Origin: a virus
IMG/VR virus record: IMGVR_UViG_3300006922_000047
Location: 1 to 44,507 of that record
DNA: 44,507 bases
Reading direction: 5' to 3' (one strand)
The notes under the pieces are model-generated. The model did no database searches. It was given only the letters and a program-made list of their open reading frames with translations, and was not told the origin of the DNA. Within the stretch, counting starts at the first letter, position 1. Every line of letters starts with the position of its first letter. The translations under genes and the position numbers were made by a program. Shown in pieces: positions 11,376 to 44,412 of the stretch.

Positions 11376-11383
11376 TATTTATG
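11376..11383 (-). promoter_or_regulatory. T4-type late promoter (CATAAATA) for gp8
   Basis: The minus strand reads CATAAATA, matching the relaxed NATAAATA late consensus reported for T4-like cyanophages. It overlaps the stop codon of the 1546-residue gene and lies 32 nt before the gp8 ATG, almost the same spacing as the exact TATAAATA before the distal fibre gene. Confidence 0.55.
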
Positions 11384-14300
11384 AGGTTTGTACAACTGTC
11401 TGATATTCGATACTCTTAATACGATAAGAAGCACCTGCATTACCTACAATGTTTTCCCCACCTAAGATAGCATATGCTGCAGCACCTGCTCCTGTAGTGT
11501 CACCCGAATCATTTGTGAATGTAATTGTAGGATGTAATACATTAGTTTCGACATATTGATTATATCCATATCCACCATTAGTAATAGTTAATGATTGAAT
11601 TTGATCTCCTGCAGCAGTTAATACGGCAGTAACAGTTGCCTGAATATCTCCATCATCTTCAACTGTTACAGTGGGAACAGCAGAATAGTTAATTCCTGGT
11701 TCTTGAACAACTAAATCAATAATAGTTCCTCTAGAAGAGAACTCATTCAGGAATCCGTTAACACCTTTGTTAACATTACCTGTGTTGAATGGAGTGATAC
11801 TAGAAAGCACCAATACTCCTGCAGTGCTATCCCAAGAAACTACAGTTCCAGTTACACCAGAAACAGATCCTGTAACAACCTCATTAACACCGAAGTTTAC
11901 ACCGTTACCAACAGTTTTATCTACAGTAACTCTAACTTGAGCAACATGCTCAACTCCTTCAGATAATCCACCAGCTGTATCAATGGTAGCAAATTTTTGT
12001 TGTGGGAAAGGTGTTGCATCTAAAATACTATCTCCAACAGCAAATAATGTAGTGTTTGTTCCACCTTGAGTTTCTTCAATACCATATAAGGAATTGAAAA
12101 TACCACCATCAAGACTAATCTGACCAGCGTAATCAGTACCAGCATTAATCAAATCGGGAATGCCATCTCCCAAAAATACTCCAGCATTATCAGGATCTTC
12201 GTTTTCATCATCATCCTCAAATGTTCTATCCTGAATACTTGAGATGGGAACAGTTAAGGTTGTAATATTATCACCAATAGAAACAATTGTATTATGTGGA
12301 AGTTGAGATGCCGTTGACGAATCTGGCAATCCACCTCCAAACTGCACAATAGCATCTTCGGTAGCAGCAAAACCAGCATCAATAAATGCCAACTCATCAA
12401 TTTCAAAAGTTACTAGAAGTTCCTTAGTAGCAGGATTCCAATCATATACTTTTGCTAATTTATTACTAGAACTTTCAACTCTTCTAGTAATAACGTCACC
12501 AACATTAAAATTGTAACTAGAAACACCAGCAACATCTTGAGTAGAATCTAATATAACTCTTTGGTCATAATTAAAATTCGTTCCTCTAGTAAGACCTGTA
12601 AATTTACCTGGTGCTTTACCCGTATAAGTGACAATTTCATTATTAAGAATAAACTGTCCAGAACCAGGGAATGCATTTGTAGAATTAACGAAGATTTCAG
12701 TAGCATCAGGAGTAGTTGTTTTAGTTAACCCTGTCAGATATTGGAATTGAGAATTTAGAGATTGTCTAGACCTAGTTTTTCTCTTTAAATTAATTAATTT
12801 AGTAAAGATAATCCTAGGGGGATTTACATATCCTTGTCCAGAATCTGTAAGTTCAATAGAACTAATTTTTCCTTGATCTATATTTGCGATTGCTTTAGCT
12901 CCACCGCCACCACCACCATCAATTAAAATAGTTGGAGGTTCTTGATAGAAATCTCCATCATCAGTGATTGTAATTGAAGTGACCTTACCCAAAGTAGAAA
13001 TTTCGGCAGCACCTTGAGCACCTTGTCCACCACCACCTTCAAATACAAGAGTTGGTGGAGTAGCAAAACTTCTACCCTCATTTCTAATAGTAAGACCAGT
13101 GATAGTTTGAACTACAGGAGAAGCAGTTCCTCCAGTACCTTCTCCACCAAGAACTCTTGCTTCAGCAGTTCCAAAATAACCATCACCATTTTTCGTCATT
13201 CTAATATAATCGATCGAACCATCATCTTTCAATACAACTTCTCCTTCTGCACCAGAAGGGGAAACAGAAGCAAGTTCTGGAACAGGGTCTCCTTCAAATA
13301 ATGGAGCACCAAAAAATTGGGGTCCAATACAGTAAGGATATGTGGGCGTTCCATTAGAAGATTCGGTCAAGAAATATGCATATGTACCATTTGGATATTC
13401 TGGTGTAACTACATACAAACCATTAAATTGATCTAAATCACCCTCTGTCGAATCATAGATATAATCTTGAACTAACATACCCATGGCATATCCATCTTGA
13501 ACACTCCTCACACCATACTGAGCATTTGCATACGAATAAGTATAAAGAGTTTTAGGTACATCAGATGGAATTACAATCTGCAATTGTCGGCTAGATGAAG
13601 TAGTAAATCCAGTAACATACTGAGAATAAGTTACTTCAGTTCCATCTAAACTATATGTAATTTTTGGATGTTGATATAGATAACTTAGATTTCCAACATC
13701 TCCAACATTTTGTGTTGGATGCCAACCATCAGAATCATTAGATAACAGTAAAATATTTCCATCATTCGATGCATCATCTTGATTGAAAATATATGTGTTT
13801 CCTCGTTTTAAATTGAGGAAGTTTGGGATAGAACCATCATATAAAAATTTACCACTAGAAACAGTTACCGCATAAGTCGTAGATGATGGATTAACCACCT
13901 CTTCCCTGGCACCATCAATTTCTGCTCCTACTTTTAATCTGTAAGAATCTGCTGCTCTTTGGACAGCATTATTAGCACCAAAATATCCATAAGGACCGTA
14001 TATGGGATATCCATCAAAAGACATACCAAGAATTTTGGAGTGTCCATCTGGATGCCTAGAGAAATCATCGTCTCCAGAACCAACAGTAATATTTCTAATA
14101 CCCCAATGATCGAAACCAGAACCATTAGCATTGTTTTGATATAAGAATACCGTTTGGTTGTTATTTCTAGATGCAGGAGGGACTGCAACTGTTATAGTTT
14201 TAAGTGTATCGAATGATGAGTCGTTATAACTGGCAACCTGAACAGAACCATAAGAAGTATTGAATGCAAAATATATGCGAAGTTCTTCATTAACATCGGG

Positions 14301-16019
14301 GTTCTCTCCACCATTAGAATCATTACCTCGGATTACTTCAACATCAAAGGTAACAACATTTCGTAAATCTAGATCAAATCTTACCCATCGCTGTCCCGCA
14401 TTACCACCTAATCTAAAGTGCTGTCCAATATCAAATCCGCCAGTGGTTCCATTACCAGATCCTGAACTTTCAATACTAGAATTTTTGAGATTTAAATCAT
14501 AATCAACTCCATTAATGAAGTCTGATGGTGTGATAGTAACTCTTTCTTGGAAGAAATCTGTAATGTAATAATCATTATCTGGAACTTCAGTGTCTTCAAC
14601 ACTACTTAAACTAATATATCCTTCTTGTCCTTCATATCCAGACATATATCTGTGATACTTACAGTAAAAGTAGATATTATTGGTTTCATCTCCATTCATA
14701 ATGAAGATGCTACTAAATGCATTTTCGTAATCAGCAGCGACTGCTGCAGAAGCACCAGTGCTATTATACAATAAACTTCCACTATTCAACTCTCCATCAG
14801 GAGTAGTACTAAACTGAATAGGGTGTCCTATACCTTGCTGATTTGATGCGTCAGATTGATCAAAGATGATTACATAATTCTTTCTTACCTGAATATTTTC
14901 TGGTGCTAGGTAATATGTATCGGGAATAAAAGAACCAAATAATGCCGCATCAGGACCAAAATTAATATAGAAAACATTTAATGAACGTGGAACACTACTA
15001 ATAGTGAAAGAGAATCCATTAGAACCAAGAACGGCAGAACTTTCTTGAAATGTTCCTGTTACATCTCTCAAGTAAATTTGCGTTATTACATTTTGAGCAT
15101 TTCTTACAATCTTTACAATTTCTGCCTCACCATCACCACCAATCTCTACAATAGTTCTACCTACCTCTACAACACCAATAGTCTCATCTAAGTCTGATAT
15201 ATCTACTAAAAGATTTCCATACTCGACTTTCAACTTCCAAGTGAATACTTTATGGAGACCCCAGTCAAGAACACTATGGTTTAACTTGAAATGATTTATT
15301 AATTTTGAAGATTGATAGTAATATGTATTGCTGTCAATAACTGCATCATAAACATCAGACTGCTTTACATTAGACTCTAGTACAGTGTCTAATTCAAATC
15401 CTATAGGGGCATCACCAGCAGCTGCTCCCCACTCTGGTGTGTGTAAGAATACACCATTTGCCATAATACCAAGTGATTTATTCTTTTGGAATGTTCTATT
15501 CTGTCCAAAAGGAACCTGTTTACCACCTCTATAGATGAAAACTTGGTCAAAATTTCTATCTAATATTAGACCCGACCCATCTCTTTCTGTGAGAATGTCT
15601 GCTGGTTTTGGATCATTATCACTAACAATTCTAAGTCTATCTACTAAATTCCCCTCAGGATCAACTTCAAAAGTCCCTGAAGTAAGAGAGTTTGGATAGT
15701 TTTGCCAAATCCTATTAATATCAAAAGAATTGATAACACCCAGAGATTCTGATGTGGGAACAATCTGCAATCTTAAAGGATCATATCCACGTCCTCTTTC
15801 TAAGACTCTGATATGAATAATCTTACCAGAATCAGAATCAATAATTGGATATAATATTGCTTCTGCTTCGGGAATGCCACAACCCGTGATAGTCAATCTA
15901 GGGGGATCTGTAGGATCATATCCTATACCAGGATTGATTACTTCTACAGCACGAACACCGAATAAATTATCAAAGATAGGCTTAATTTGTGCGCCTGATC
16001 CAGGAACTGTTCTTGCCAT
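11379..16019 (-). CDS. YHYH/cupredoxin multidomain virion structural protein (1546 aa)
   Basis: A modular tail protein. Approximate order by residue: Gly-rich repeats 18-92; a beta region; cupredoxin-like domain 345-475 with H399, C453, H456 and M459 (GHP ... YCKYHRYM); a jelly-roll domain 515-650 (GTTGGFDIGQHF to FDHWGIRNI); YHYH domain 660-905 (MSFDGYPIYGPYGYFG ... LDQFNGLYVVTPEYPNG) with a second, ligand-less cupredoxin-like unit apparently nested at about 714-838; Gly-rich repeats near 970-1070; a DATEIFVNSTNAFPGSG module near 1105; an acidic DENEDPDN loop near 1275; a VGE-type module near 1390; and a final repeat. The ATG follows GAGG by 6 nt. No enzyme motif is visible. It is likely part of the adsorption apparatus. 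The family is recognisable from marine phage structural proteins; the function is unproven. Confidence 0.8.
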   Translation of the reverse strand: MARTVPGSGAQIKPIFDNLFGVRAVEVINPGIGYDPTDPPRLTITGCGIPEAEAILYPIIDSDSGKIIHIRVLERGRGYDPLRLQIVPTSESLGVINSFDINRIWQNYPNSLTSGTFEVDPEGNLVDRLRIVSDNDPKPADILTERDGSGLILDRNFDQVFIYRGGKQVPFGQNRTFQKNKSLGIMANGVFLHTPEWGAAAGDAPIGFELDTVLESNVKQSDVYDAVIDSNTYYYQSSKLINHFKLNHSVLDWGLHKVFTWKLKVEYGNLLVDISDLDETIGVVEVGRTIVEIGGDGEAEIVKIVRNAQNVITQIYLRDVTGTFQESSAVLGSNGFSFTISSVPRSLNVFYINFGPDAALFGSFIPDTYYLAPENIQVRKNYVIIFDQSDASNQQGIGHPIQFSTTPDGELNSGSLLYNSTGASAAVAADYENAFSSIFIMNGDETNNIYFYCKYHRYMSGYEGQEGYISLSSVEDTEVPDNDYYITDFFQERVTITPSDFINGVDYDLNLKNSSIESSGSGNGTTGGFDIGQHFRLGGNAGQRWVRFDLDLRNVVTFDVEVIRGNDSNGGENPDVNEELRIYFAFNTSYGSVQVASYNDSSFDTLKTITVAVPPASRNNNQTVFLYQNNANGSGFDHWGIRNITVGSGDDDFSRHPDGHSKILGMSFDGYPIYGPYGYFGANNAVQRAADSYRLKVGAEIDGAREEVVNPSSTTYAVTVSSGKFLYDGSIPNFLNLKRGNTYIFNQDDASNDGNILLLSNDSDGWHPTQNVGDVGNLSYLYQHPKITYSLDGTEVTYSQYVTGFTTSSSRQLQIVIPSDVPKTLYTYSYANAQYGVRSVQDGYAMGMLVQDYIYDSTEGDLDQFNGLYVVTPEYPNGTYAYFLTESSNGTPTYPYCIGPQFFGAPLFEGDPVPELASVSPSGAEGEVVLKDDGSIDYIRMTKNGDGYFGTAEARVLGGEGTGGTASPVVQTITGLTIRNEGRSFATPPTLVFEGGGGQGAQGAAEISTLGKVTSITITDDGDFYQEPPTILIDGGGGGGAKAIANIDQGKISSIELTDSGQGYVNPPRIIFTKLINLKRKTRSRQSLNSQFQYLTGLTKTTTPDATEIFVNSTNAFPGSGQFILNNEIVTYTGKAPGKFTGLTRGTNFNYDQRVILDSTQDVAGVSSYNFNVGDVITRRVESSSNKLAKVYDWNPATKELLVTFEIDELAFIDAGFAATEDAIVQFGGGLPDSSTASQLPHNTIVSIGDNITTLTVPISSIQDRTFEDDDENEDPDNAGVFLGDGIPDLINAGTDYAGQISLDGGIFNSLYGIEETQGGTNTTLFAVGDSILDATPFPQQKFATIDTAGGLSEGVEHVAQVRVTVDKTVGNGVNFGVNEVVTGSVSGVTGTVVSWDSTAGVLVLSSITPFNTGNVNKGVNGFLNEFSSRGTIIDLVVQEPGINYSAVPTVTVEDDGDIQATVTAVLTAAGDQIQSLTITNGGYGYNQYVETNVLHPTITFTNDSGDTTGAGAAAYAILGGENIVGNAGASYRIKSIEYQTVVQTS

Positions 16020-16027
16020 TTATACCC

Positions 16028-17254
16028 TCAGTTTACTACGATAATGGTGCCGTTCATAGCAGCGTGTACTGTACACTGATAATAAAGAGTATTGGGTGAA
16101 TCCATAGGAACAGTCCAATACAAAACTGTTTGACCATTACCTGATTGGCCAGTGGTATACGGGTTACCACTCAATCCAGTTGTAGATTGAATTCTAAATG
16201 GGTGACTAGCACCATTTGAAGTGTTATCAAAAGCATAGGTGAAACCCCTATAAACATAAATCGTGGGGTCATTTACAGTTACAGGGAAACCAGGACCACT
16301 AAACGTATAATCATTTGCACCACTAGAACCAATTTCCCACCAAGTAAGAGGACTTGCTGTTCTTACCCAAGATGTTCCATTGTAGAACAAATTGTCACCT
16401 TGAGTCAGTCCAGTAAAGTCGGTATCTGTCATACCCGACAATGTACTGGTAACAACACCAGAAAAATCAATAGTGAGTGTATCACCAGTGATTGCCGTCG
16501 TAATATTATTACCACCAGCAATTGTTACTGTATCTGCAGAACTATCTGCTGTTGTACTTCCAGTATCTGCTGCTATTGTTGAGAATAAATTAAGATTGGT
16601 TAGACCAGACTGGTCATCCTGAGGCAACCATTTACTGGAACTAGAACTCCATTTTAAAACTTGGTCATTGGTTGGGGCAGTAGTGGTCGTATCAACATCA
16701 TTAAGATCGTTAACACTAGAGTACTGCGTAAGAAGTGCTGCCTGAGTATCACCAACACCACCTGCAGTAATATTCATATTCACATAAGGATTATCATCAC
16801 CATCAACAGTGAAAAAATACCCAGGATATGCTGCTGAAGTAGGTGCATTGCCAATTGAAGTATATTCGTTTTTATACTTGATTGACGTAGGGAAGTCAAT
16901 GGTGCCATCAGAACCTTCAAAAGTAGTTACGGTTCCTCCAGCAGTAATAACTACATCTCCTGTTCCGTTAGGAGTAATTGGAATATTCCCATTGCCACTA
17001 GAAATAATTCCATGTATATCAACATCTAGAGATGTTGTGAGCACTGCAAAGTCGGCAGAAACAAAGCTGCTGCCATTATATTTTAATACATGACCACTAG
17101 CAGCATTTGCTGTGGTCAGTGCTAAGGCAGAACCGTTGCCGAGCGTAGAATAAATTTCATCAAAATTATCATTAATTTTATCACCACCAACACGGAGGGT
17201 ATCCCCCGTGCTGTCATTCGCTGCGCCACCTAATCCAAGAGTTTGTTTAGCCAT
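16028..17254 (-). CDS. Tail fibre with C-terminal plastocyanin-like (cupredoxin) domain (408 aa)
   Basis: The N-terminus (NDSTGDTLRVGGDKINDNFD, then EIYSTLG) is the common fibre-anchor motif 'NDGTGDTLRxAFxKxNxNFxELY'. The middle, about residues 60-300, is a Ser/Thr/Asn/Asp-rich fibre shaft. Residues about 310-408 form a cupredoxin-like domain: YVYRGFTYAFDN, then SHPFRIQ (H351), and finally LYYQCTVHAAMNGTI with C394, H397 and M400. The His ... Cys-x2-His-x2-Met-x-Gly pattern matches the ligands of blue-copper domains such as plastocyanin/azurin-like families. There is no signal peptide, so this is not a periplasmic electron carrier; it would be displayed on the virion. A GATAAATA late promoter lies 20 nt upstream. 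Structural role is confident; copper binding is inferred from the residues only. Confidence 0.82.
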   Translation of the reverse strand: MAKQTLGLGGAANDSTGDTLRVGGDKINDNFDEIYSTLGNGSALALTTANAASGHVLKYNGSSFVSADFAVLTTSLDVDIHGIISSGNGNIPITPNGTGDVVITAGGTVTTFEGSDGTIDFPTSIKYKNEYTSIGNAPTSAAYPGYFFTVDGDDNPYVNMNITAGGVGDTQAALLTQYSSVNDLNDVDTTTTAPTNDQVLKWSSSSSKWLPQDDQSGLTNLNLFSTIAADTGSTTADSSADTVTIAGGNNITTAITGDTLTIDFSGVVTSTLSGMTDTDFTGLTQGDNLFYNGTSWVRTASPLTWWEIGSSGANDYTFSGPGFPVTVNDPTIYVYRGFTYAFDNTSNGASHPFRIQSTTGLSGNPYTTGQSGNGQTVLYWTVPMDSPNTLYYQCTVHAAMNGTIIVVN

Positions 17255-17273: not shown

Positions 17274-17281
17274 TATTTATC
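17274..17281 (-). promoter_or_regulatory. T4-type late promoter (GATAAATA) for the cupredoxin fibre gene
   Basis: The minus strand reads GATAAATA followed by ACT, the same three bases that follow the exact late promoter at 1389-1396. It overlaps the stop of the 6421-residue gene and is 20 nt upstream of the fibre ATG. Confidence 0.55.
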
Positions 17282-20200
17282 AGAGATAGTCAACTGTTTC
17301 TTCACCGTAGTCTGCAAGATTGGGGGCAGTCCAGTCATCAGGCACTTCGGTTTCGACCGCAATGGTAGAATTTTTATATCCTGATCCAGTATTATTAACC
17401 TCAACAGTGTTAATTCCAACAATCGCACGAATGTCAGCATTAAATCCACTGATAGAATCAACCCTAACAACAGGTCTACTTGTATAAGCAGAACCAGGTG
17501 AGGTTACGCTAACTTTTTGGATAAATCCACTAGTAAGAACTGCTGTCGCATCAGCATTTTGACCGAAGACAGAACCGAGATAATCAAACGTGATCAGAGA
17601 GTTAGAAGATTCAATAACAGCGACCTCACGGTCTTCTGTCTCACCCTGAATCTCTAAGAAGTCACCAGGTTCAACAGGAGGAACAACCTCAGCAGCGTCA
17701 ACGTCTGCTTCAGAACCAACATATGAGAATGCAGCGAAACTAGAACCAACTCTAGGAATCTCTGAGAAGATGATTCTCGAACCAACAATCTCAAAACCAA
17801 CACCTGGTTCTTGAATAACCCCATTGAGCGAGACAATGATATTATTCTCAGGTCTGATTGTTGTAGACTGAACGCCCTCAGTAAGAGTCAACGAATAGAA
17901 AACATCATCACGTTTCAGGTTAAATGATTGACGTAAAGAATCAAACTCGAAAGAAATATCATCCAACTGTCTCAATTTACCAACATAGAATCCAGTAAAT
18001 GTTGAACCTGGATCAGGTGCCTCTGCGAATTGAATCTTATCAGAGAATGCATTATATGCATTACCAGCACCAGGAGGTTGTAGGATACCGTTGACGAAGA
18101 TAAGCATGTGTCCTGCAGGATCGGGCAGGTATGCTGTACCATTATTGATAGAGAGGTCGAAGGTAGTTTGTATACCATCAAATCCTCTGAATGCTCTCTT
18201 CACGCGAGCGCGTGAGATAACTTTATCGAGTATGACAGATTTGTAATTCTGCTTTCCAATAACATAATCATTTACTCCCCAAGTTCCAATGACACTAGTA
18301 AGATAAAGTCTCTTATTAACGCCAACTGCAACGATATTCCCAATGAGTGCTGCTGCACTTCCTGTAGTAGTAATTGCAGTACTAATCGTGCCCGTGGCGA
18401 TAGTATTTGCACCACCACCTGCGGCACCAAAATCACCAACCGAATCAGTGATAACGAATGTTCCGTCAATAGGAGCAACATATAGATAATCGTTATCAGT
18501 ATCTTTACCAGTAATAATCGCTCTCTTACTTGTGTCTCTACCACCACCAGAATTCAGTTTATAAATGTAATGCCCGACTGTAAAGTCTGCTACACTTGTG
18601 GAGAAACTATAGCGAATATTTCCGCCCGAGATAATTTTATCACCGATCTTAACGTCGAGTCCTTCATATTGTTGAACATCAATATAAAGTTCAGTGCTGC
18701 TAGAGTAAACAACAGAGTTTTTATCAAATGTGCCATTTAAGGTAGAAGTATCAACCGTTAGTTTACCACCACGATTATCTAAAACTGCCGCTTCATTTTT
18801 ATAGAATGCTGTAGGTAAAGCAGACTGCTCGCTGGTGTACGCATAGAAAGGAATATCGTTCGCAAAATCACCTCTCAGTTTAATGATATGAAGTCTATTT
18901 TCAATTGCACTTAATGTTGCAATAGTGGTATTTGCAGCACCCTGAATAACATCATTGATAGTCCAAGTTCCGCCAGTAATTTCTACATCCAGATACTTGT
19001 AATTTTCATCTTCATGGAATCCATAGACAAGACCTGTAACATTAGAATCACCTTGTTTTACAATAGATTCACCCATCGTGTAAGGACCATCAGTGATGTC
19101 TCCATCAATACGGAATCTCTTATAAACTTTAGCAATTTGTGCTTCATTAAGAACGACAGATTCAAGTTCAGCATTTTGATCGCTAAATTGTCCATAGAAG
19201 TAATCTGATGTATTCAATCCACCACCAGCACCTGTAGGTACATAAGTAATGCCATATTCTCTGGTGGGGATAGTAATACCAGGATTGACTGTTACGTCCA
19301 CATAATATGTGGAATTGCCTAATTGGTTTCTATAGAACTGAACATTTTCTCTAACAATCGTAAGAATCTCATCAGTATTATATGCAGATCTCCAAGTAGT
19401 ATTATCGAATGCATAAGAACCATTTGGAGTTGGAGTAGCAAGAGCACCATCAAGAGCACTTTCGATATAGTCTTCTAGTAAGTCTAAAGCGAACAACTTG
19501 ACATTATACTCAGTATTGGAGAAGAATGATGTTCCACCAACAGCAGTATATGCATCAAATACACCCTTGTTAAGTTTAGCACCCCAGACATAAATGCCCG
19601 AAGTTCCATCGCCACTGAAAGTGGATTGATTATTTTCATTTTTAATTCTAATCCTAGTCCTCAGAGTACTAAATCCGAAGGAGAATCTTAGTGTTGCATA
19701 AATTCTATACCACCCATCACCAAAAGGAACAGTATTCATTTCATAAGAAATCAAACCACCCTGAGTTTGGAAAATAGATCCGAAAGAACCATCTGCCAGA
19801 TTGACATCAAAGAAGAGAGTTTGTTCTCCTGATAGTCCTTCATCCAAGGCAATTACAAATCTAACTCTACTGTATTCAGCAGATTTAACAAATACCGAAC
19901 TTGTAAATGTCTGGTCTTCTTCGTTACTAACTGAACCTGCATCAAAAGTATCTGTACCAGAATCAAAGGTAACATTACCCGAGTCCATAGTCGTAAACTG
20001 ATTAAGACTATAATCTCTAATCAATCCATGATTAGTTCCACTAACACTAGCAATAATTTTTTCTGCCGTTTGTGTTCCATCAGGAGCAAGAATATCGTTG
20101 ACCGCAAATGTAGAATCAACAGTAGTCCAATTAACTTCAAATGCTTCGGGATTAGTCCACAAATTAGTTACAGAGAACTCGGATGCAATGGGGGATTGAA

Positions 20201-23200
20201 TCAATCTAGCATCATTAAATGTAAGTACATTACCGACATTAGTGTAGTAATCAAAGACCGTTCCAACACCACTTGTAGGAATCGTAGAAGTAACTCCACT
20301 AGTTCCACCAGTTAATGTATCCGCATCAGCAAATACTGTTCCTGTAATAGGACCAATATAAACTGCATTACCAGTATCTTCAAGAACCTGAGCAGTTCCA
20401 CCACCACTAGATGTTAAGGTCTCACCATTGGTAAATCTAGAAGTATCTAGAACAACGTTAATGTTGGTGATTGTTGCAGGAGTGCTAGGATTGCCTCCAC
20501 TAAATGTTGCTGTGGGAGGAGATGCTGGATCATACCCACGCCCAGGGTTAGTGATAGTTACACTATTAACTTCACGAAGTGTTATGAACGATGCTGCAGC
20601 ATCCGTAGTAGATGCAGTTTCTTCTACTGCATTAGCAACAGAGATTGTGACAATACCTTCAAATTCTTTGTTATTGTCAATGACACCAAATCTCTTAATG
20701 CCATAATGATCGAAACTAACACTATCTTCATAGTAAGTCTGTTGTATTTTGAATGATACGTTAGACGCTTTTGCTGCAGCAGGAAGATTTGCTTCGACTG
20801 CAGTCCAAGTAGCAAAACTTGCAGCATTTGAAGCACTGATAAGGTCTTGAACATAAGTCCAAGCGCCAGCACCAACGCGATAGTAAAGTTCTAAATCTTC
20901 ATCATTAGTACCAGTTTCAGGAGCATCACCACCATTACTACCAGTACCAGCAATTACATATGCACGGAACTTATCATATCCTGTAGTATCTAAACCATCA
21001 GTAATAACAAATCTAGTACCAGATGCAGCACCAAATCTAACGTGTCTACCACCACCAGCAAAACCTCCTGTAGTTCCAGTGCCAGTACCAGCATCTTGTG
21101 CTTCAGTACCTGTTCCGACAGCGGTGAAATCATCTGAGTCCCAAACTCTACCATCATAAACCATGGATGTAACAGAATCGCTAGTGAGAATTGCTGTTAA
21201 ACCATCATTGGTTACATTAGTACCAGAAAGCGTTACATCGGGAGGCAATGTATATCCAGCACCACCGTCAGTGATAGTGATAGATGAAAGAGGACCAAAT
21301 GCTTCAAGAGTCGCAACTGCTGCTGCTGTGATGCCTGCAGAAGGTGCTGTAAACGCAATTGTTGGTAAGGATTGATATCCCGCACCTGCAGTGAATACAA
21401 GTTCACTGACGACACCTTCTCTAGAAAGAGAAATTCTTCTTGCTTCGGTAGTATTAGAAGCTGTGGTATCAGTAATAATAATATCATGGGAAAGATTGTC
21501 AACTAATCCATCAAGGAATGAATCATATTGCCATGCTCCCTGACCAAACTGATCTACAATTGTATTTGTAATTTCAGTCCTATAATAGTTTTTATTGAAC
21601 AGCATTTGCTGAGAAGCATATCTCCCAGGAATACCAGCAGGAGAAAGAATCCTTACTGCAATATCAATCAGTTCTCCCCATCTTGCCTTAACTGCTTCAA
21701 CATTGGTCATTGATTCAGAATCTCTGAATGCAGCAGAAGATGCATATTGACCACTATATTGGTCACCTGTTACTGTTGAACCAGTGTCATAAAGGAGGTT
21801 TTCAATTGCTTTAAGACCGACATTTCTAAGACTTTCGATAGCAAAGATAGTTGCAGAAAGTTGGTCTTCAATATGGTCTAACTGAAGATTTGCTTTGAAA
21901 TAAAGTTCAATTGCATCAATAGTGCTATTGGTTCCACCAGTTTGAAGATCTGAGATTGCACTAATAATAATTAGTTTCAAATCTCTCTGACACTTAGTTC
22001 TACCAGCAGTACCATTTGGATAATCAAATGCTCTATAGGTAACATTGTTTAAGACATAAGTGAACTCGTTATCAAGAAGACCTGTAGCCTCCTCTGCCAT
22101 AAAGTTCCTATTAAAGTGTAATCTATCGGCGGCAATTCCAAAATCTGCACCAGTAGGAGCGATAGTGTCATTAAGAAGAGTAACAAGGTTATCGATGGCA
22201 GTTTGAACATTAGCACACTGACCAGCGTCATTAGTAATACCCCAATCCCCAATAATAAGTTCATTAGTATTGTCAGTAGTCAAATCTCCATTGATTGCTT
22301 GCTTCGCATAGAAACCAAGTCTTTCATGTGCATATACAGATTGCCAAACTTGCAAACGAATATGCTGCAGAACATTATTATTTCCAATATAAAACTTGGA
22401 TGTAGTTGCAACTGTCTTATTGCCACCATTTTCAATATCAGTTGCGATATCATCAAGAATTAGACCCAAGTCCGCTTTACAACGCTCTGTACCAGCAGTG
22501 CTTGTACCATCAGCATTTCTAGGCATTGACTGAGTAAGATCAGGATACCTGGTGAGCATATCAAATGCTGCCTTATCGACAATAGCAGTTCTGTTTGAAC
22601 GAATTAAGTTTGCAGCATCACGGAATCTATACTGTCCACTAACACCAATTTTATTCGTGTAAAGAATATCATTTGGATTATCAGTGTAATTTGCTTGCAG
22701 TGTCTCTTCATAGAAACTATCAACTGTAGCACCACTGTATTCAATAGCAGGTGATACCTTAGTAATTGTTCCGAGATGGTCAACAGGACTTGCCAGGTCT
22801 GCATTTGTAAGCGTGTCAATCAGAATGTCGAGCAGATTATCTGCTGTCGATGCAACATCTGAACAATCTCCAGTAGTATAGTTTAGAAGTGATACTGAAT
22901 TAGTTGCAGCAGAAACAAATGTGTGAGTATATTGTTGGTCTGCAGGAGATGCCCCAACATTTATCGTAATAGTAGTAGCAGTAGTCGCAGAGACTTTAAG
23001 TACACTTTGATGTGCAGGATCATCACTTCTAGGATAAGCATGCTGAGTTACATCGTTATCAGAACTACACGTAAATACAATACCTCCAGTTGAAAGAGAT
23101 ATCTGACTACTAGTGGTCAAACTATGTGTTCCAATCGTCAACTCCATTTCACCAGTCGATGCACTGTAAGTTGCTGCAGTAGGAGTAAACTGAGCGTATA

Positions 23201-26200
23201 CTGTGTTGTTAGAATCAGTAAGTGTGGTATCGGTATACTGAGTTAATCCATGAGAACCAGATACTGTCCACAGAACATTATTGATGATGTATGGAATGAA
23301 ATCACCAAGTTTGTTGTATGCCCAGACTGTTTCGTCAATTTCAGTCTCAACGTGGTTGAGTGCGACTGCATTAACATCTGTCCTATCAACATAAAGTGCT
23401 GAAGCATCCCAGATATGGTTATTAGAACCATTACGAAGATCTTCTACAAGTGCTTCGATGATATCCTCAATATCATCTTCACAATTAACGTTACCACCAG
23501 GAATCGTTAGGGAAGGATACTGTTGAGTTAAGAGGTATACAACTTCTTTTGCAATAAATTTCTTATTATTGTCAAGAAGAGTTGCAGCATCATAATATCT
23601 GTGAGTATTACCAGTAAAACCAGCAACTACTGCACCACCATTTGCATTTGTTGTTGCATTGATCGCATCATTGTTAAACTCTTCACCCAATGTGAAGTCT
23701 TGAGAACCAGACCAATCATATGAGTATGTGTCACCGTTAGCACCATCAAAGTGAAGGAGTAGTTTGGTGTTAATATCACCTTGGAAAATTCCCGCACGAG
23801 GAGTAAATGGTGCAGTATAACGAGCAACGTTAGAGAATCTAAGTTCATCGATATATCCCTCATATGCATCAGCATTATTATAAGAAGAACCAATTACTAT
23901 TGGTTTTGCAGTATATGTATTGGCATCAGTTCCTGTACCTACGGACGCACCATCAATGAACAATTCCATGTCAGTACCGTCTCTAACAACAGCAACGTGT
24001 GCCCAAGTGTCAGCAACTAAAGTGATTGCACCAGAAGTTACTACATCTGTACCATTAACATTAAGTCTAACTTGACCTGCTTCAACATAAAGTCTGAGTG
24101 CAACTTCTGTACCAGTAGTTCTCATGTCAACAAGGTGAGCAGTTCCCGTCAGAGCGCCAGCAGCAGGGTGTACCCATGCTTCTAGAGTATAACTTGCAGT
24201 ACCAACTCCATAGTCGCTAGAAGAAGATTCACTAATATAATCTCCAGTACCATCTAAAGATAGTGATGTTGAACCAAACTTTGTCTGAGTGGTAGAAAGT
24301 GCTGCATTACCAGCAAAAGTCAAGTTATGAATATCAAGACCCGTGGAATTAATTCTACCAAGTTTTCCAAGATACAAAGTTTTTTGTGCTTGGTTATATC
24401 CAATAATTTCTGCTTTGGTATCTCTACTACGCAGGATTTGACCCAGAGAGAAGAAACCTTCACCGACTTCATTAGTAAGGGATAATTTACGAATTGAAAG
24501 ATCTTCATCAGAAACAAAATTACCACTTTCGTTACCATATTCAATTTTATAATTTCTAATAAACTCGTTGTCTTGTAAATCTCCAGTCTCATTATCATAA
24601 GGAAGTATGTAATGATTGATTAATTCATTTTCAGGGAATTTAGTATTAAAATCGGTGGCATTGTTATCAAATTCAACAACTGCAATTTGAGATTCTGAGA
24701 TATCATCCAAAACGATATTTGGATATGTCGTTGATTGAATTCTATCAAATAGCAGAGCAAAGAAGGAAGAACCTTCAGAAATTTCTACTTGTTCAACAAC
24801 TGCATTTGTTGCGGGGTCTACATACGGAGTAGTAGAAGTAATCCTAGCAACAACACGAGACTTAGCACCAATAATTACTTCATCTAGAAGGATATCATAA
24901 AGACCAGGTTTTGATTGATATGTACCAACCGTCTTACTCAAAGTAAGATCATTTGTAATTGTAATATCAGTTCCATAAAGTGGTGTACTCTGTTGAATGC
25001 CACCTGAAGAAGTACCAAGTTGACCTCTAACAACAACTAATGTTGTAGATTCAGAATTTTGAGTGATACCAGTAACTTTAATAATCTCACTACCAATCTG
25101 ATAGTTTTTATCAACAACAAATACTCCAGATGCAACTGGTGCAGGTGTGTTTATATCAGAATCTTGATCAATTAGTTCAAAGGAAGTTGTAGAAGGTCCT
25201 ACAGTATACCTCAGTTTTGCAATAGGAGTCTCTGAACCCTTTTCAAGGTTGATATCCTCAATAATTGCAGTATCACCACTAAGGTCGGTAACACTTTCAC
25301 CAAATTCAAATAATCCATTATTTGCAACTGTAACCGCAGTTTCAAATAGAGCAGAGAATCCTGTAGTATTACCAAGAACAAGTTCACTAGTACTAAATGC
25401 CGAACCTTCCGTGAAGAAACCTTCAATCAGTTCTTTTTGGACATTATTTGGATTTTCCTGACTACCAATATTTACAGTGGTTGCTGTGACTCTAGTGATA
25501 GTCAATTTAGCACCAGAACCAGTTCCTGTCAGAGTTTGTCCAACAGTAGGAACAATACCACTTGTACTTGCAAAGGTGTTCTCAATAATTGCAATAGGAC
25601 TAATTTGAACATTTACATACTTAACACTTGCAGGAGGCGCAGGAGGTTCAGAGAATACGATCGAATCGCTCTGAATTTCAAAAGCAACCTCAGGTGTTTG
25701 AACAACACCATTCATGATAACCATCAACTGATTTGCACTAGCGATTACGGACTCGCCGTTATTAACAGTGAGTGGGAATGCAGTTCTAACGCCATCAAAC
25801 AGAGTAGAAATATCATCAATCCTCTGTACAACTGAGGTTAGAATATTCTCTGAAGATGTCAGTCTCTTTTGACGGAAAAGAATTTCCGTATTGTTGAACT
25901 CACTGTAAATGGGTTCAACTAGAGTAAAGTTTTGAATATTGGGAACAATTGCTTCATTAGCAAGTTCAACAGACTTAGTTAACTCAAAATCAGTTTCTTT
26001 ATTGGGAATTGTAGTAAAGTCGCTAATTGAAAGTTCACCAAATACCTTAAAGGATGCAGGGTGTACATTTCTAACCAGAACATCTTTCCATTCACTAATA
26101 GAGACAGAAGACTTAACGGCATAAGAGAAGTCCTGATAATAGTAAGAGTCTTGAATCTTTTGAATGATTTCTGAAGGTTTGCCAACATCATCAACAAATT

Positions 26201-29200
26201 GTCCAGTGGTCTTAGTAATAGATCCAACTTCTAGGACACCTCTAGCAATCTTAAGTTTGGATATGACACCAGAAGACTTGGAGATGACACCAGTAATAGT
26301 TTCACCTATAGTAAATGTTCCTGTATAGTTAATCATTTTCAGGATTCTAGGTCCTACTTGCCAACCAGAGTTTGTAGAAACATAACCCTGTGCAGTAGCA
26401 TTTTCTAGAGTATCACCCTGATAAACCAATTCACCTTCTAGGAAGGTAGAAGTGATAACATTTGCTTCTGCTGCACCACCAAAAGATTCAGTAAGAACCG
26501 ATTGACGACCAGTACCAGCATTAACATAAGAGATTGCATCACCAAGTTCTGCGTTTGCAGAAGTAATAGCAAGTTTTAATTGATCATCCTCCAAAGAGTT
26601 TGCTGTTCCAGCAATTGCATAATAAGTATTGGACCCGTTAAGTCTACCAATAGCACCCGCTGCGAGAGGGAAATCAGATCCCTCACCAGTATCAGTGACA
26701 TTTAGCGTAACTTCAGAACCATTTTGAATACCATGAGGGAAAGCAAACTGTAGGAGACCCAAGTCAATGTTAATAACATAATTGAAAGATGACTTGAGAT
26801 TGACCTGAGGTTGTGAAGAATAACCTGACCCAGGATCTTTAACTTCGATGGCAAAGAGTCTGCCATTTTTAATTGTTGATACTGCAACAGCACCAGTACC
26901 ACCACCACCAGAAATAACAACAGTAGGCGCTTGAGTATATCCAGAACCAGGATCAGTAACAGTAATACTGTCAAGAATACTAGTAGCAGTCAACTGAGCG
27001 TTGATTGGGAAAGAAATTTCTGGTCGTAAGGTATAATCATGAGAATAGTCAAAACCGAAGTTATTATTCTTTAGATTTTTAATCTTACCAATTTCTTCAC
27101 CAAGAGTAAAGAGTGACGCACCAGATCCAGACGCAGGAATAACAACATTCAGTTCTGCACCAGAACCAGTAAGTCCCGACCCAAGGATGCCACTGATTGC
27201 TTCAATGTCAATATTAGCTACAGTATATCCTTTACCAGGACTAGTGACTACAACAGATTGAATTTGACCAGGGATCAATACACCTTCTTCATCTGTACCA
27301 TCGCCAACAGCAATTTGAACAATTCCACCTTCACCATCACCCGAAATAGGAACACCTCTGTAAATTCCTACAGCATATTCAGTTCCAGGTTCATTAATCT
27401 CAACTCTTTCAATTTTTCTATTAGATTCGATAGCAGAGACAATAGGTAATTTTGTATAGAATCCACCAGGATTAACAATACGAATATTTGAAATAGAACC
27501 GACTGCCTTTTTAGAACTAGTGCTGTAAGAGGCATTTGCGATAGTAGCAGCAGCTTCTGGTTGATTTGGAAGTATAAACTGGAATGTATTATCACCAGTA
27601 GTAATTGTGCCGCCAGAAGTAGAATCTACAGTAAACGTGCCAACATATGGTGAGAATGTAACATCCAGATAACTATCTGAAATGACAGGAGAATCCGCTC
27701 CAGGTCTAGAGGGATCGAAATAATATGAGATATTTGTAATTACATCCTCAGTAACTTTAAACTTAACTGTTGGTGTAGGAACACCTTGACCAGTAACTCC
27801 AGGAGTACCGATACGTTCAATGGAGTTGAATGAATATTCCAACTTATAGAGAGGATCCTTAGCAAAGGAAAGGTTTCCACCTAACATTGAAGAGTGTGCC
27901 AAATTGAACAAATATTGATGTCCATAGTACATCTTCAATGTAGGAGACTTCACTAATACAGTTACACTACTACCAGTTGTAGCAGGAGAACTAACTGCGT
28001 TTTGAGGTAACTTGTATGTAAATTCAATTGGACTAATGACTCTTTCTACAGGGAAAGAACCATCGTACTCATCGTAAACAGTACCAGAAACTTCCTCATC
28101 TGGATTACCATCAACAAAAATCTGCTCATTCGCTTTCAAATAATGGAGAGTGTCAGAGACACAATATACTGTATCGCTATTGTTAACAGTAGTTACTTGA
28201 AGAATCTTACTAAGATTAGAAACCAAAGTGATTTTTAAAACACCTGTAAGATTTGTAATTTGTACTGTAGAACTAGACGAATTGAAAGATACATCACTTG
28301 AAGTTAATGTGACAACAGAACCTACAACATAACTTGAGGATCCACTGACTTCCACAATCTTAATACTGTAATCATTATCAGCATAGGATTTAAACTTAGC
28401 ATATTCATGTAAATTATTTGTACCACCAATTTCTTCTGGGGCATCAAACGTTGCAAGATCAATATCAAATGTTCCAGGAGTAGTGTTTACAATATCGGAG
28501 AATGTTTGTGCAATCTCATTTACATCATTTGGAACTGGTCCAACGATATTATAAGTGCTTTGCTCATCAAACTGCTCTGTTGACAATTCATATACATTGA
28601 CATCATTAGTCCAAGAATTGTTATTAATAGCAACATATACTTTTTTATTGGGAATATCTACTCGTGTGATATAACCGCTATTGACAAAAGAAGCACCATT
28701 TTTAATGACCAATTTTGCTCCAACAGTAAAGTTGAAAGACTGGTTGATAGTGAGTTCTTGAACATTATCAATCTTAAGTAAATTAAATGTCTTAAAGTAA
28801 TAACGATTTCTGACATTCGCAGTTACTTTTAATTTTTGAGAACCAGGAGAAGGGACAGTTGCAGTTCTAGAACTCCAAACGTCTCTACTATAAGTAAGAT
28901 TTAACGTACCCTCAGACATTGTAGTGATGGCAGTGCTCAAGTCTAAAGTTTGGAAACCAACTTCTGCTAGAGCATAACCAACAGAGACTATAGTCAATGG
29001 AACACCAGTTACAGGAGTTACTGCAGTTCTAGTAAATCCATAGTTTGAATTTGTGTTTACGTTGAATGTACCTCTTCTAGTAGCATCGGAATTTTTATCA
29101 ACCTTCAACCCAAATGATTCATAATCGATATAATCGTATCTAGCATGTTGCTGTGTAAACCATGCAGTATCAACAAAAGTATGATCTAATGCAAGTGTAA

Positions 29201-32200
29201 CTGCGCCAGGAAGAGCCAAAGGATCTCCAAAATCGCTAGGTGCTGTTACAGTTACCGCTCTATTACGAATTCTTAAAGAGTCAATAAAGAATTGACCTTG
29301 ATTGTCTTCGATAAATCCACCTGCACTAGGGAATCCAGGAACATTACCAATATGAATGTCCTTAGAACCAAGAGCAGTATCTGAAATCGTAGCAGAAATT
29401 TGCTCAACTCCATTTACATATACTTTAAATGTATTTGTTTCTTTCCTAAGAGAAATTAGTTGCCATGTATTATCAGCAAACAATCCAGTGTTTGTACCTG
29501 TTGCAGCAGAAGCACCAGAGAATACTGTACTATTATTAGTAACAACCATCTCAATTCTACCATCATTGGCAGTTCCATCTGTATTGTAATACAACCAAAG
29601 ACCACCAGTAGCACTTTGAGCATCACCAATAGAAATAAGAGACTGCTTATCTGCAGCTAATGTCTCAGCATTACTCCCAGCAGCATCTTTATACAGAAGG
29701 AATTCGATGACAAAATCATCTTGCAAAGCATTACCCAAACTAGTTGCAGCAATCTTTGCAGCACTATTTTCAAATACAGTAGATGCACCTGTTTGGAATC
29801 CGAAAATCTTCAAATATCCATCAGTGTCACGTTCAATAGATCCACCTAAACCAAGTGTAGTTAAAGTATGGTGGGTTGTAGTGTCAGACAAATCACTATC
29901 AAAAGTGAAGATTGCTTCATTTCTATTCCAAGACGTTTGACCGAAGATGTATGGATCACCAGAGTTATCTACATCAATACTGTTTACAGTAATACCTTCG
30001 ACTGTATTTTCAGTAAAGTCATTAGTTGTATGATTTACAATTTTACCTTTATAATCAAGTTTTACTAAATCTACAGTCTTTTTGTCTGTAACATTATCTA
30101 CTCTTGTAAATGCGATATTTAACTCACTGAAAATATCAAGAACACACTTGGGTGCTAAATTGATATCTCTTCCAGGGGCAACATAACGATAATTCCAAAG
30201 TGAATTGCCAGATGTGTTATACTTACCAACCCAGAAACTATCTCTTGTAGTATCATCACTCTTCAACTGAAGAGTAGAGGTGACATATATGTCATCAAAC
30301 TCATCAATCGCAAAAGAAATATCTAAGAATGAATATGCATTGTTTGTAATCTCATTGATCCAAACCGTTGTTATTGCTGTGCTACTAATAGTTGCTTTAC
30401 CAATAGCAAAGTTTCTATCACCAGCATTTTGACTCGTAGAAGTTTCTAGGAGGAAATATAAATTACCAGCAGAATCTAAAAGAAGATCTTTGATTTCCTC
30501 ATTACCATTTGTAGATACAATTTTTCTCTTAACAGTAAACGTTCCAGAAGAATCCAAGACACCAACAAATGCATCATAAGGATAAGGTGAGTTGGTATTA
30601 GTAAAACCACCAATGATAACTCTATTATCAGATGTTCCAATAATTGAAGTAATATTGTCAGAACGACTTGCACCTGAAATTCCAGCATATGCCTTTTGGA
30701 ATTCTAATGTAGCACTCAACCCATCAGATGACTGATTATACTTAGCAACAATAATATCAGGATTATATGCTCCTAAGATACTACTGTTTGGCTTATTGAT
30801 ACCAGCAACCCAAATAGTATTACCTTCAACATAGATCTTTTGCAATTCTGCATAATTCAACCCACTAGTAAGTTCGAGAGTTTTTTCCCATTCTTTAACA
30901 CCACCAGCAGACAATTTAGCAATAAACGCTACAGTATTACCACTATCATCAGGAGTTGAACCGCAAATAAAGGTTTCTTTAGTTTCATTGACAAAAATAT
31001 CATTTACCTTAACATTTTCTTCATTAGCAAATTTTGCAATAAAGTAATCTGCCTTTTTAAATATTTGAGGATGAGAAAGAATTACTCTTGGATTTTCAGT
31101 GTATGAATTTCCAGAATTAATGATATTAACAGATTTAATAGATCCAATAGAATCTACAACTGCCTCTAGTTCTGCACTTTCTCCATCACCATCAATTACA
31201 ATAGTTGGAGGAATATCTTCATTATATCCACTACCAGTTTGGTCAATAGTAACTTCTTCAATACCTTTTAGTTGTCTTACCGTAAACTCTTTATTGGTAG
31301 TTTCAATATTTTCAGAATAATCAACAAAAATAGTATCGTTGACTTCTAAGGTATGAGGAACTTCTGTTGTAATTTGACCGTAATTCAATCCTTGACGATA
31401 TTGGTATCCAAAACTATTAATAGTTTCGCCCTTAATTCTAGAAACACGAGCAGAAGCACCAGAACCACCTGTTCCATCATTATTAAAGATGAGTTTATCA
31501 TCTACCTGATAACTTGTACCAGCATTTTCAACAACAAAGTCTGTAATAGATGCATTTTCAAATCTACTAATGGTTTCAACTTCAATATCAACTTTGGATT
31601 CAGTTTTTACCTTAGGGAAGTAATCAAAAATCTGAAGGGGAGGTTCTTCTAGAATTTCATCGGGATCATCAGTTTCGTCCTGACTGATGATGCCATCTCT
31701 ATTTTCATCTTCTACTTCAAAGCGAAGAATATCTCCATTCTCCAGAGACAGTGAATTGGTAGATGCATTAGGTGTTCTTTCAACATCAATATCAACATTT
31801 TGATATGGATCTCTATAACGGACAACACCTCTTGGGATATTTTGCTGAGTTGCATCTTCATCTAAGTTCCAAGAATCAACAACAGAGTTAAAGTCACTAC
31901 CAAGAACATAAGGGAATACAGCATTACCTGCTTCAGTATTATCAATAGTTACAAAATAACAATATCTACCATTAGGGAACTGAGGTGTCTTACAGAAACG
32001 CCCATTATATTGATCCAAATCACCAAGATTGAATACGTACTCATAGTCTTCAACATAAGTACCAGCACTATCTGTACTGAGAAGTGGTCCCTCTGTTCTT
32101 ACTGGGGTGGGATTAGTGATATCATCAAAAACTAAATCAGTTTTCAATCTGTATGAAGAAGAAATTTTAGTAATATTTGAAGATTGGTCTGTAGGGTCTG

Positions 32201-35200
32201 AGTAACCATATGGTCCATAAATTGGGTTTCCATCAAATGCCCAACCAATAATAGGAGAGTGCTCTAATTGAGTTTCCTGCTCAACGATAACATCATTAGT
32301 ATCTTTAATTAAATTATCACCAAGGATATATCTAAGTCTCTGAGGGTTAGATAGGTGAGCATATTCACCTCCATACTGAGTATTATATCCTTCAAAAACA
32401 GAACCTTGAGAATCATCAAAAGTAGCAGATTCTTGTAAGTTATATGTCCACTGGAATACATTTGCAGAGAAAATTGCATCCTGCCCCACAGAGGTCAGAT
32501 TAATAACAGTTGTACCTTGAGTATAGTTAATACCTCTATTATCAATTTGAATGCTAGTAACTTTACCAGCATTTTCGCCCTCAGTATCAATAACTGCCTG
32601 TGCTTTTGCACCGAAACCAATACCTTGAATCTGTACCTCAGGTGCAGTAGTATATCCAGATCCACCCGAAATAATTGCAATAGAAATAATTCTACCGTTG
32701 TTGACAATTGCCTGAGCAACAGCACCGACACCAGAACTTACAGTAACAGTTGGACTGGAGATATAGGAACTTCCTGCAGATGACAAATTAACAGACTTAA
32801 TAGGACCTCTAACAGATGCAGTACCAGTAGCACCAGTACCACCACCACCAACAATAGTAATTTCTGGTTGAGATGTATATCCAGTACCACCACTAGTAAT
32901 CAGAATATTAGATACACTACCTTTAGTGATAATAGCAGTTGCAGACGCTCCAGAACCGCCTCCACCAACAATAGAGACAAGAGGAGAGGAAGTATAACCA
33001 GATCCACCAGTATCAACACTAATGCTGCTTACAGAACCATTTACAACAACTTCTGCAGTAGCACCAGATCCCCCACCACCTGTAATAGCTGCACTTGGAG
33101 GTGATGCCGCATCATAATCCTGACCAGCATTAGAAATGGTTATGCTAGTGATAGGTCCGAAAGTTTTTGATAATGTTGACTTATAGGACCATACAGAAAC
33201 ACCGTTGACCCAAGTTCCAATAGGACCAGGACTAATTACATTTTTTGTAGAAATTGTAGATGGACTCTGTACAAATCTATTAAGTTTTCTTTGGTTGCCA
33301 GGAAGAAGTGCAGAACCTACAAATGGACCAACATTATAGTTGGGGATACCAGTAGATGCAACATACACATAGTTGTCGTTAAAGAACGAGTTCTGAATAT
33401 TTGTTGTGTAAGAAGAAATACTGTTATTGATTGGGGTATTTGTTGACTTACCTTTATTCAAGTTAACAGAAACAAGAATATTACCTTGTGGTGCAACAAG
33501 TGCAGTTTGAGGTAACTGATATTGGAATACCGTATCATTGTCTCTAGAAGTTACTTCAAACGTTCCGTTATAAATGATCGGATTAGCACCATAAATCGTA
33601 ACTTCGTCTCCAACCAAGAGACCGTGATTATTTGAACATGTTACTGTTGCAAATCTGTCAGCAACACCACCAAAAGTAATACCTGTAACTTCAATGAGTT
33701 TTTTAACGTTATATAACCAAGTAGTCAGTAATGGTTGCTCACCAGTACCACCAAGTTTAGCAACAGTTAGTTTATCACCTGGTAAGTAGTAAGAACCAGT
33801 GTCAGTAAGATTTGTTTGTTGTGCATCAACGATACCAACAATATTCATTACGACTTCTTGAGTAGTTCCTCTGTTTAATACAACTTTAAAGTTAGAAACT
33901 ACCTCTGTGGCAGAATCCCAAACATAGGGATTAAGACCAATACTACCAGGAGAAAGACGAGTACACTCAATAAACTGATTGAGAGATTTCTCTTTATAGC
34001 GAACAACTTCAGATCCACCAAGAATAAACTCACCGTTCCTTTCAGGCCAACCAATAGTAGAGTCAACAGTAATAATACTGTCATCTTCTCCAAGAGGTTC
34101 TGCTAGTCTAGTTTTATAAGGAACTACAAACGTTCCTTGAATGGTTTCTTCAGAAAGAACAAGTTCATAGATGGTAGTATTTGCAGTATTGATTGCAATA
34201 TAATTTTCTACAAGAGCACTTGCATCTTGAACATTAATATCAGCAATATCTGCAACTTGAGAAATTAATGCATCTTGAATATTCCTAGGATCACCACTTT
34301 CTAACGTTGCACGCAGAATTGTGTTAATAGACCAAGTTGCTGCCGATGGTTTAATAATTTGATCTTTAGGATAAGAAACATCAATAGTTTCACCATAAAG
34401 AAGTTTAAACAGATATTCTATACTAAAGGTTGTTCCTTTTGTCTGATAGAAAGATTTAATATTTTTGATTGCTGTACGAACATCAATCTTCTTGTAATCT
34501 AATTCAGGAACGTTTGGTAAGAACTGTTCAGTATACTTATCAAGAAGTCTTTTTACAAATACAGCATCTAAGCATGTTATAGCGTCACCAATATTATGAA
34601 CCGATGCAGCAGTATTATTACTAAAAATTGCATTGCCATCTTCGGTATAACCAATAATACCACTTGCTGCTCTGGCACAATTTAAAAACTGTGCTTTAGA
34701 GTATCCTCTACCAGGTTGTAAAATTTCAAATCCAGTAATTTCATTAACACCAATTTCAACTGATGCAGAAGCTTGAGGAGGACTTTGAATGATAACTTTA
34801 GGAGGTTCGGTCTGACTATATCCTGTACCAAATTCAGTGATATTAATATCAGTAATTCTACCATTAAACACAGAAGCTACCGCTTGTGCTCCACTACCAC
34901 CCAGATATGTACCTGTTGAAGGATCAGTTCTATCGTCAATAATATAAACTGAAGGGACATCATCATATCCAGCACCACCATCAAGAATTTCGATAGTGAT
35001 GACACGTCCATCGGAATCGACTACTGTCTCTAAAACTTGAGCGCCAGTAGGTTCAATAATTTTAATTCTAGGAGTATTAGTGTAACCTTGTCCAGCATTC
35101 AGAATATTTACTGAAGTAACTTCACCATTAGTAATCTCAGTCTGTAAACTTGCTTTAATTGGGTTACTACCAGTTGGTTCATCAATATAAATTTCAGGTG

Positions 35201-39214: not shown

Positions 39215-39790
39215 TCAAGAGACACCGCCGCCACTCATCTCAATAAAGACGTTAGGACTGCAACCAGTAACAACGGAGTTGCATGGAAATGCTGGTGATT
39301 TATCTCCCATTGGATCTCCAAACTTAGAAACACGTACTTTACCTATAAAAACTGTCTTGGCAGTTGCCAGAATCTTTCTAGCATGCCCCACAGGCGCTTC
39401 TCTACCACCTGTAATACCCAAAGTACACCAGTGGGCAGGATTTGGTGTAACTCCTGGTGGACACCCCTTAGGGATGCCTGTATATGAAACTGTGTGTACG
39501 TTGATTGTTGGATGTGGAATAAGAATATCCTGGTCCACCATAGGAACAATACCATTCACAACTACTCTTGCAGCTAATGCTTTACCGACACCTAAGGGTA
39601 ATTGAGGATGAGGAAGCCAAGCAGTGACCGCATCCATTTGTTGTACTGGTTTAGGAACAATCTTAGGGTCATAAGGTGGCATTTGGCATCCTGGTAGGAT
39701 TCCTCCTCCTAATCCAGGGTGATGAGAAGCACCTGCCCCTAAACCATGCCCTGAGCAAGTGCCCATAAAAAGTCCAATTCCCGATGCCAT
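39215..39790 (-). CDS. PAAR-motif baseplate spike-tip protein (191 aa, gp5.4-like)
   Basis: This is a PAAR-like protein that would cap the central spike and sharpen the puncturing tip, as T4 gp5.4 does and as PAAR proteins do on VgrG in type VI secretion. The C-terminal end GDKSPAFPCNSVVTGCSPNV, then FIEMSGGG, matches the PAAR core (V-x-T-GSPNVFI). The N-terminal part is rich in Gly, His and Cys (CSGHGLGAGASHHPGLGGG), consistent with metal coordination at a spike apex. T4 gp5.4 is only 97 residues, so this one has an added N-terminal domain, or two PAAR-like halves (the earlier half has VVVNGIVPMVDQDIL). It sits 3 nt after the 825-residue gene and upstream of gp25. Confidence 0.85.
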   Translation of the reverse strand: MASGIGLFMGTCSGHGLGAGASHHPGLGGGILPGCQMPPYDPKIVPKPVQQMDAVTAWLPHPQLPLGVGKALAARVVVNGIVPMVDQDILIPHPTINVHTVSYTGIPKGCPPGVTPNPAHWCTLGITGGREAPVGHARKILATAKTVFIGKVRVSKFGDPMGDKSPAFPCNSVVTGCSPNVFIEMSGGGVS

Positions 39791-43487: not shown

Positions 43488-43748
43488 TTATTTAATGTTT
43501 TCCACAATCTCCGCATTATCTGTGGAAAAAGTATCATTAACCTGTGGAGAGGTTATATGTATATCTTTCCAGTAATTTGGGTAGACGCATAAGTTAACTT
43601 GACGAATCATTGATTTAGCATGTTCTGCTTCTAGTGCGGGTTTGTTATACTCTCTGATGGTGATAGTTATGTAATACTCAGAGATGAAGTTAATAACACC
43701 TTTATAATGTTTGTAAGTAACATGTTGTCCTTTAGAGAAGTTATACAT
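43488..43748 (-). CDS. Small conserved-type protein (86 aa)
   Basis: The N-terminus MYNFSKGQHVTYKHYKGVIN, then FISEYYITITIREY, looks like a small beta-barrel (SH3/KOW-like: an opening K-G-x-x-V-x-Y-x-x-x-x-G-x-I-x-F). Similar unnamed proteins are frequent in marine T4-like phages; this is recall, not a search. The middle (AEHAKSMIRQVNLCVYPNYW) also matches that type, and the C-terminal 15 residues are polar. Its ATG overlaps the oxygenase stop by 8 nt (ATGTATAA), so the two are co-translated. The last codons contain two TTTTCCACA boxes in inverted orientation. No function is assigned. Confidence 0.75.
   Translation of the reverse strand: MYNFSKGQHVTYKHYKGVINFISEYYITITIREYNKPALEAEHAKSMIRQVNLCVYPNYWKDIHITSPQVNDTFSTDNAEIVENIK
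43498..43529. repeat. Inverted pair of TTTTCCACA (DnaA-box-like) sites, copies 2 and 3
   Basis: TTTTCCACA at 43498-43506 (+) and TGTGGAAAA at 43521-43529 form a perfect 9-bp inverted repeat with a 14-nt centre. A degenerate third element TGTGGAGAG follows at 43543-43551. The pair lies in the last codons of the 86-residue gene. It could act as protein-binding sites, or form a hairpin near the 3' end of the message. Confidence 0.5.
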
Positions 43749-44385: not shown

Positions 44386-44412
44386 TGATAACAATCAGTG
44401 TAGTGTATGAAT

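Follow-up and report, generated by a model that had tools for sequence, protein, structure and literature searches.

The baseplate protein gp9 of an ocean T4-like cyanophage, which forms the socket of the tail fibre, almost certainly ends in a domain with the cupredoxin fold, as indicated jointly by structure prediction and sequence homology, and in the translation this domain contains all four ligand residues of a type-1 copper site. The best overall explanation, that this is a genuine type-1-copper-type and amicyanin-like cupredoxin standing where T4 gp9 has its C-terminal domain, is given about an even chance. The DNA is an IMG/VR virus record, and the window means the whole analysed stretch of 44,507 nucleotides. 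The following features of gp9 are considered:

16028-17254, minus strand: gp9, baseplate wedge and long-tail-fibre connector, 408 aa (PHROG 677, E 3e-191, residues 1-407)
16985-17248, minus strand: T4 gp9/gp10 N-terminal domain (baseplate attachment), gp9 residues 3-90 (Pfam PF07880, E 3e-9, above cut-off)
16031-16345, minus strand: predicted cupredoxin domain, gp9 residues 304-408, about 105 residues (amicyanin profile match, AlphaFold2 model, type-1 copper proteins on top in Foldseek)
16202-16204, minus strand: codon of H351, the candidate first His ligand (SHPF)
16055-16075, minus strand: codons 394-400, ligand loop CTVHAAM (C394 at 16073-16075, H397 at 16064-16066, M400 at 16055-16057)

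The original prediction placed a plastocyanin-like domain with a full copper-ligand set at 16031-16330, which corresponds to the final ~100 residues of gp9. When a profile of the domain built from 12 diverse relatives was compared with the PDB, amicyanin was the best match (E 8e-6), followed by nitrite reductase, auracyanin, plastocyanin, rusticyanin, pseudoazurin and multicopper oxidases, and the best 60 of 103 PDB chains (E up to 1) were, almost without exception, blue-copper, CuA or multicopper proteins. The structure prediction and fold comparison proposed at that time have now been carried out and favour the same fold: the AlphaFold2 model of the domain, made with 39 aligned sequences, is all-beta (pLDDT 95.5, pTM 0.87), and Foldseek against the PDB gave rusticyanin first (E 4e-5), then copper nitrite reductase, amicyanin, pseudoazurin and plastocyanin. 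All 50 Foldseek matches listed look cupredoxin-fold, with moderate TM-scores of 0.45-0.57 for the best of them. The first phmmer match, copper nitrite reductase 2vmj, was not counted as independent support because it is an engineered protein bearing the amicyanin loop CTPHPFM. A virus-encoded nitrite reductase was also considered as the source of the domain and rejected, as the published case concerns a full NirK gene encoded by a virus and is unrelated (PMC8115048).

The four residues H351, C394, H397 and M400 are all found at these numbers in the translation, so the cupredoxin ligand pattern proposed earlier is borne out; their clustering in space is implied by homology and by the fold match. 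C394 is the sole cysteine of gp9, and H55 and H81 are the only histidines outside the ligand set. The ligand loop YYQCTVHAAMNG fits the amicyanin pattern Y-x-C-T-x-H-x-x-M-x-G and was aligned on the amicyanin loop in the PDB profile match. Its spacing, C-x2-H-x2-M, is that of amicyanin, whereas plastocyanin has C-x2-H-x4-M. Of the earlier description the cupredoxin with a complete ligand set is therefore kept, and the assignment to plastocyanin is replaced by an amicyanin-type loop. Plastocyanin membership is disfavoured by the family scores as well: the domain of the window has no match to Pfam Copper-bind or NCBIfam plastocyanin, which are matched by some relatives only and with weak scores. 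In many cupredoxins Asn stands right after the first His; in gp9 of the window Pro takes this place, which, like the moderate TM-scores, counts against the type-1 assignment. The resulting HPF is reminiscent of the type-1 His of laccases.

The 408-residue protein had been labelled a tail fibre. Since it is a gp9 by PHROG 677 and PF07880 and lies among T4-type baseplate neighbours, tail fibre has to be read as tail-fibre socket. The surrounding cluster comprises the gp25 and gp6 families, a giant 6421-aa ORF, the gp10-type wedge protein and gp8. Matches to gp9 were obtained in 330 phage records, mostly of Synechococcus and Prochlorococcus phages, and the best was ACG-2014b (95.6%). The giant gene, a single ORF (17280-36545, minus strand), takes the gp7/VrlC position; its product has numerous repeated segments rich in beta structure and contains a YHYH-like motif, HSPIIGWAFDGNPIYGPYGY. 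Judged by eye, the ORF at 39215-39790 (minus strand) resembles a PAAR-type spike tip and the one at 43741-44394 (minus strand) a 2OG-Fe(II) oxygenase.

In the PDB, the N-terminus of gp9 matches the N-termini of T4 gp10 and T4 gp9; the similarity to T4 gp9 is confined to the N-terminal ~60 residues, and no match to the T4 gp9 C-terminal domain was obtained in this comparison. It has been described for T4 that six gp9 trimers (18 copies) are the sockets, that the long tail fibres attach to the C-terminal domain of gp9, coaxially with it, and that baseplate triggering brings gp9 against the C-terminal domain of gp10 (PMC3004832). As the match to T4 gp9 is limited to the N-terminus and the C-terminal end appears to be a cupredoxin, it is simplest to read the latter as the domain that docks the fibre. 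It would then be the socket of the long tail fibre in place of the T4 gp9 C-terminal domain, and by analogy with T4 its position at the fibre joint is highly probable.

Conservation of the ligands was followed in three alignments of diverse sequences (12, 28 and 39 of them), in which some pairs are as little as 26-29% identical. Only 7 of the 101-105 columns never vary, and these include all four ligands; the chance that four preset columns are all invariant is about 8e-6, a value to be read with the relatedness of the sequences and their partly motif-based retrieval in mind. For the first set of phage loci, whose sequences are related and so do not count as independent events, the tally of domains that cover the Cys column is 167 with four ligands, 50 with none and 0 with one to three. 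The quartet behaves as a unit that is kept or lost as a whole. Many loci had originally been collected by motif patterns, and to counter this bias the four ligand columns were masked in an HMM; searched against IMG/VR, it gave 178 matches, 173 of which keep the motif, and the remaining five are gp10 domains. Some exceptions are informative: the baseplate wedge subunit of S-SKS1 has a loop longer by two residues (C-x4-H-x2-M) and keeps all the ligands, and in a tail fibre of S-B05 the residues H, C and H are replaced by F, A and V, those ligands being lost together. In 7 of 7 comparisons dN is also lower in the domain than in the remainder of gp9, with dS near saturation.

A second candidate site is located in gp10, next to gp9:

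11379-16019, minus strand: gp10-type baseplate wedge protein, 1546 aa (PHROG 708, whole length)
14637-14918, minus strand: gp10 D1, second cupredoxin-like domain with complete H/C/H/M (residues 399, 453, 456 and 459; HMM 1e-27)
14079-14378, minus strand: Reelin-subrepeat/CBM-like jelly-roll, gp10 residues 548-647, between D1 and the YHYH domain
13542-13901, minus strand: gp10 D2, cupredoxin-like, all four ligands lost, inserted in the YHYH domain (HMM 8e-33; ligand columns NSN-)
13353-13553, minus strand: C-terminal part of the gp10 YHYH domain, residues 823-889 (Pfam PF14240, E 2e-15)

The quartet of D1, a domain which was not a search target, is kept in 74 of 74 relatives and in 34 of 34 aligned gp10 segments, and profile-profile comparison with the gp9 domain gave a probability of 92.5. 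A direct PDB search with D1 alone gave no sequence match to cupredoxins, and the model of the gp10 segment (pLDDT 67) is too weak to confirm the domain, with Foldseek matches mainly to Reelin/CBM-like jelly rolls; the identification of D1 is thus drawn from profile homology with the gp9 domain. In three loci a further cupredoxin-like domain is nested inside D1; there Gln stands at the axial position instead of Met (CHYHTGQ), the arrangement of stellacyanin-type sites. The jelly-roll is present in the window phage and in only 4 of 33 aligned relatives, and is possibly a carbohydrate-binding insertion. The YHYH domain (13353-14079, minus strand) is split by the insertion of D2. Other authors predicted that YHYH domains are tail hydrolases that bind zinc (PMC7824862), and therefore the baseplate may possess two kinds of metal site, cupredoxin-type and YHYH.

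D2 and the tail-fibre domain of S-B05 share the fold family and have no ligands, so that in some members the fold does without metal. They speak for a metal-free adhesion module, in which the fibre joint would have an Ig-like beta-sandwich with the four residues retained for packing. Packing would not, however, produce the all-or-none tally, nor would it preserve every ligand across the two-residue loop insertion of S-SKS1, and this explanation is considered improbable.

A metal-binding gp9 domain is accordingly preferred, and binding as such is regarded as likely. The lack of an export signal, claimed in the original prediction, agrees with a 19-residue Kyte-Doolittle scan, where no hydrophobic signal was seen at the N-terminus of gp9 (maximum mean 1.0, at residue 69); for this reason loading of the metal in the copper-poor cytoplasm is unlikely. 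In the cytoplasm, where gp9 would be synthesized, copper is scarce and zinc is available, and type-1 sites are able to bind Zn in vitro. These circumstances favour a different metal in the particle, such as Zn(II) acquired in the cytoplasm where gp9 folds, which would make the domain a structural, zinc-pinned beta-sandwich. Against it, the invariant ligand set is that of copper and includes the axial Met, a residue rarely needed at zinc sites, and cellular relatives, which are exported proteins, retain the copper ligand set; zinc is consequently considered rather unlikely. Among cellular proteins, the nearest relatives found are lipoproteins of Bacteroidota composed of a CHRD domain and a C-terminal cupredoxin with the quartet complete, ~34-40% identical to the gp9 domain, and exported lipoproteins with the same quartet support a copper-type site. 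Copper is on balance the somewhat more probable metal of the gp9 domain, and given the intact copper-binding residues, copper is probably present at the attachment point of the tail fibres in virions of the window phage and of hundreds of sequenced relatives.

It can be proposed that gp9 would be made in the host cytoplasm without export, presumably metal-free, and that copper would be picked up when the virion leaves the cell on lysis. The bound metal would pin the C-terminal ligand loop onto the barrel, and a rigid, competent fibre joint would result, with the gp10 D1 site acting in parallel. Such a structural or licensing role of the metal is put forward tentatively, as a possibility of less than even probability. 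In its boldest and decidedly speculative form, the proposal would give each virion of T4-like cyanophages a ring of up to 36 blue-copper sites (18 of gp9 and 18 of gp10, with the copy number of T4). These would stay empty until the particle has left the copper-poor cytoplasm, so that copper uptake would act as a licensing or redox switch of the fibre joint and the particles would be a copper ligand of the surface ocean.

A complete type-1 site in a fold used for electron transfer, together with the presence of two sites per wedge (gp9 and gp10 D1), could also be taken as a redox device that trades electrons with a partner on the host surface or in the periplasm, or senses redox, and thereby controls deployment or triggering of the fibre. 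No such partner is known, and in S-PM2, the phage of the published work on light-dependent adsorption, no intact copy of the domain was found; because of this the light-dependent phenotype gives the redox explanation no support and was set aside. A redox function is seen as distinctly improbable.

The gp9 cupredoxin domain was matched in 353 phage records, almost all of cyanophages, and the arrangement is general in T4-like cyanophages. The same domain is found outside gp9 in tail spikes, fibres, S8-peptidase-domain proteins and podovirus proteins encoded beside tail-fibre genes; one such protein of S-SCSM1, a phage with a mass-spectrometry virion proteome, is labelled "virion protein" in its record. 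This recurrence in many adsorption proteins of marine phages, with iron in tail fibres as a precedent (PMC11705849), could suggest a lure or receptor mimicry, in which a metal-uptake or cupredoxin-docking protein of the host recognises the copper-loaded domain, a copper version of the Ferrojan Horse. At the position of gp9 the domain would nevertheless be covered or near the base of the fibre and not at the receptor-binding tip, and the lure is considered very improbable.

Cyanophages are among the most abundant viruses of the ocean. If the reading is true, the conserved, ligand-complete copper site at the tail-fibre joint would be the first cupredoxin described in a virion, as far as found; it would provide a specific and testable handle on the control of fibre deployment and widen ideas on phages and metals from iron to copper. 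The domain also helps to annotate the many marine phage proteins sharing it that are now called "hypothetical", "tail fiber" or "immunoglobulin-like". Type-1 copper proteins and gp9 were each known already; in the literature searched, neither their combination nor its spread among cyanophages nor a second site in gp10 was met with, and no prior report of a cupredoxin on a virion, in a cyanophage or in a phage tail was present in that literature, which left most subscription papers outside.

Among the nearest known systems, amicyanin shares with the gp9 domain the cupredoxin fold, the loop pattern and the spacing of the ligands. Amicyanin is, however, a small exported electron carrier with HN at the first His, whereas the gp9 domain has HP, its copper site is predicted and it forms part of a virion baseplate protein without an export signal. 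Plastocyanin, including that of phage petE, belongs to the same superfamily with weak family-level scores and differs in the loop; the phage petE plastocyanins are stand-alone metabolic genes, separate from gp9 (PMC3037559). T4 gp9 has in common with gp9 of the window the N-terminal domain, the gene neighbourhood and the PHROG annotation "baseplate wedge tail fiber connector", but its C-terminal domain is unmatched and the predicted cupredoxin stands at that end instead. The Bacteroidota CHRD proteins have the quartet of the gp9 domain and, unlike gp9, are exported lipoproteins and not virion proteins. Finally, T4-type tail fibres have HxH sites holding iron (PMC11705849); there the metal is held by histidines within the fibres, with neither a cupredoxin fold nor a cysteine ligand, and yet, like the predicted gp9 site, these are metal sites in phage adsorption proteins.
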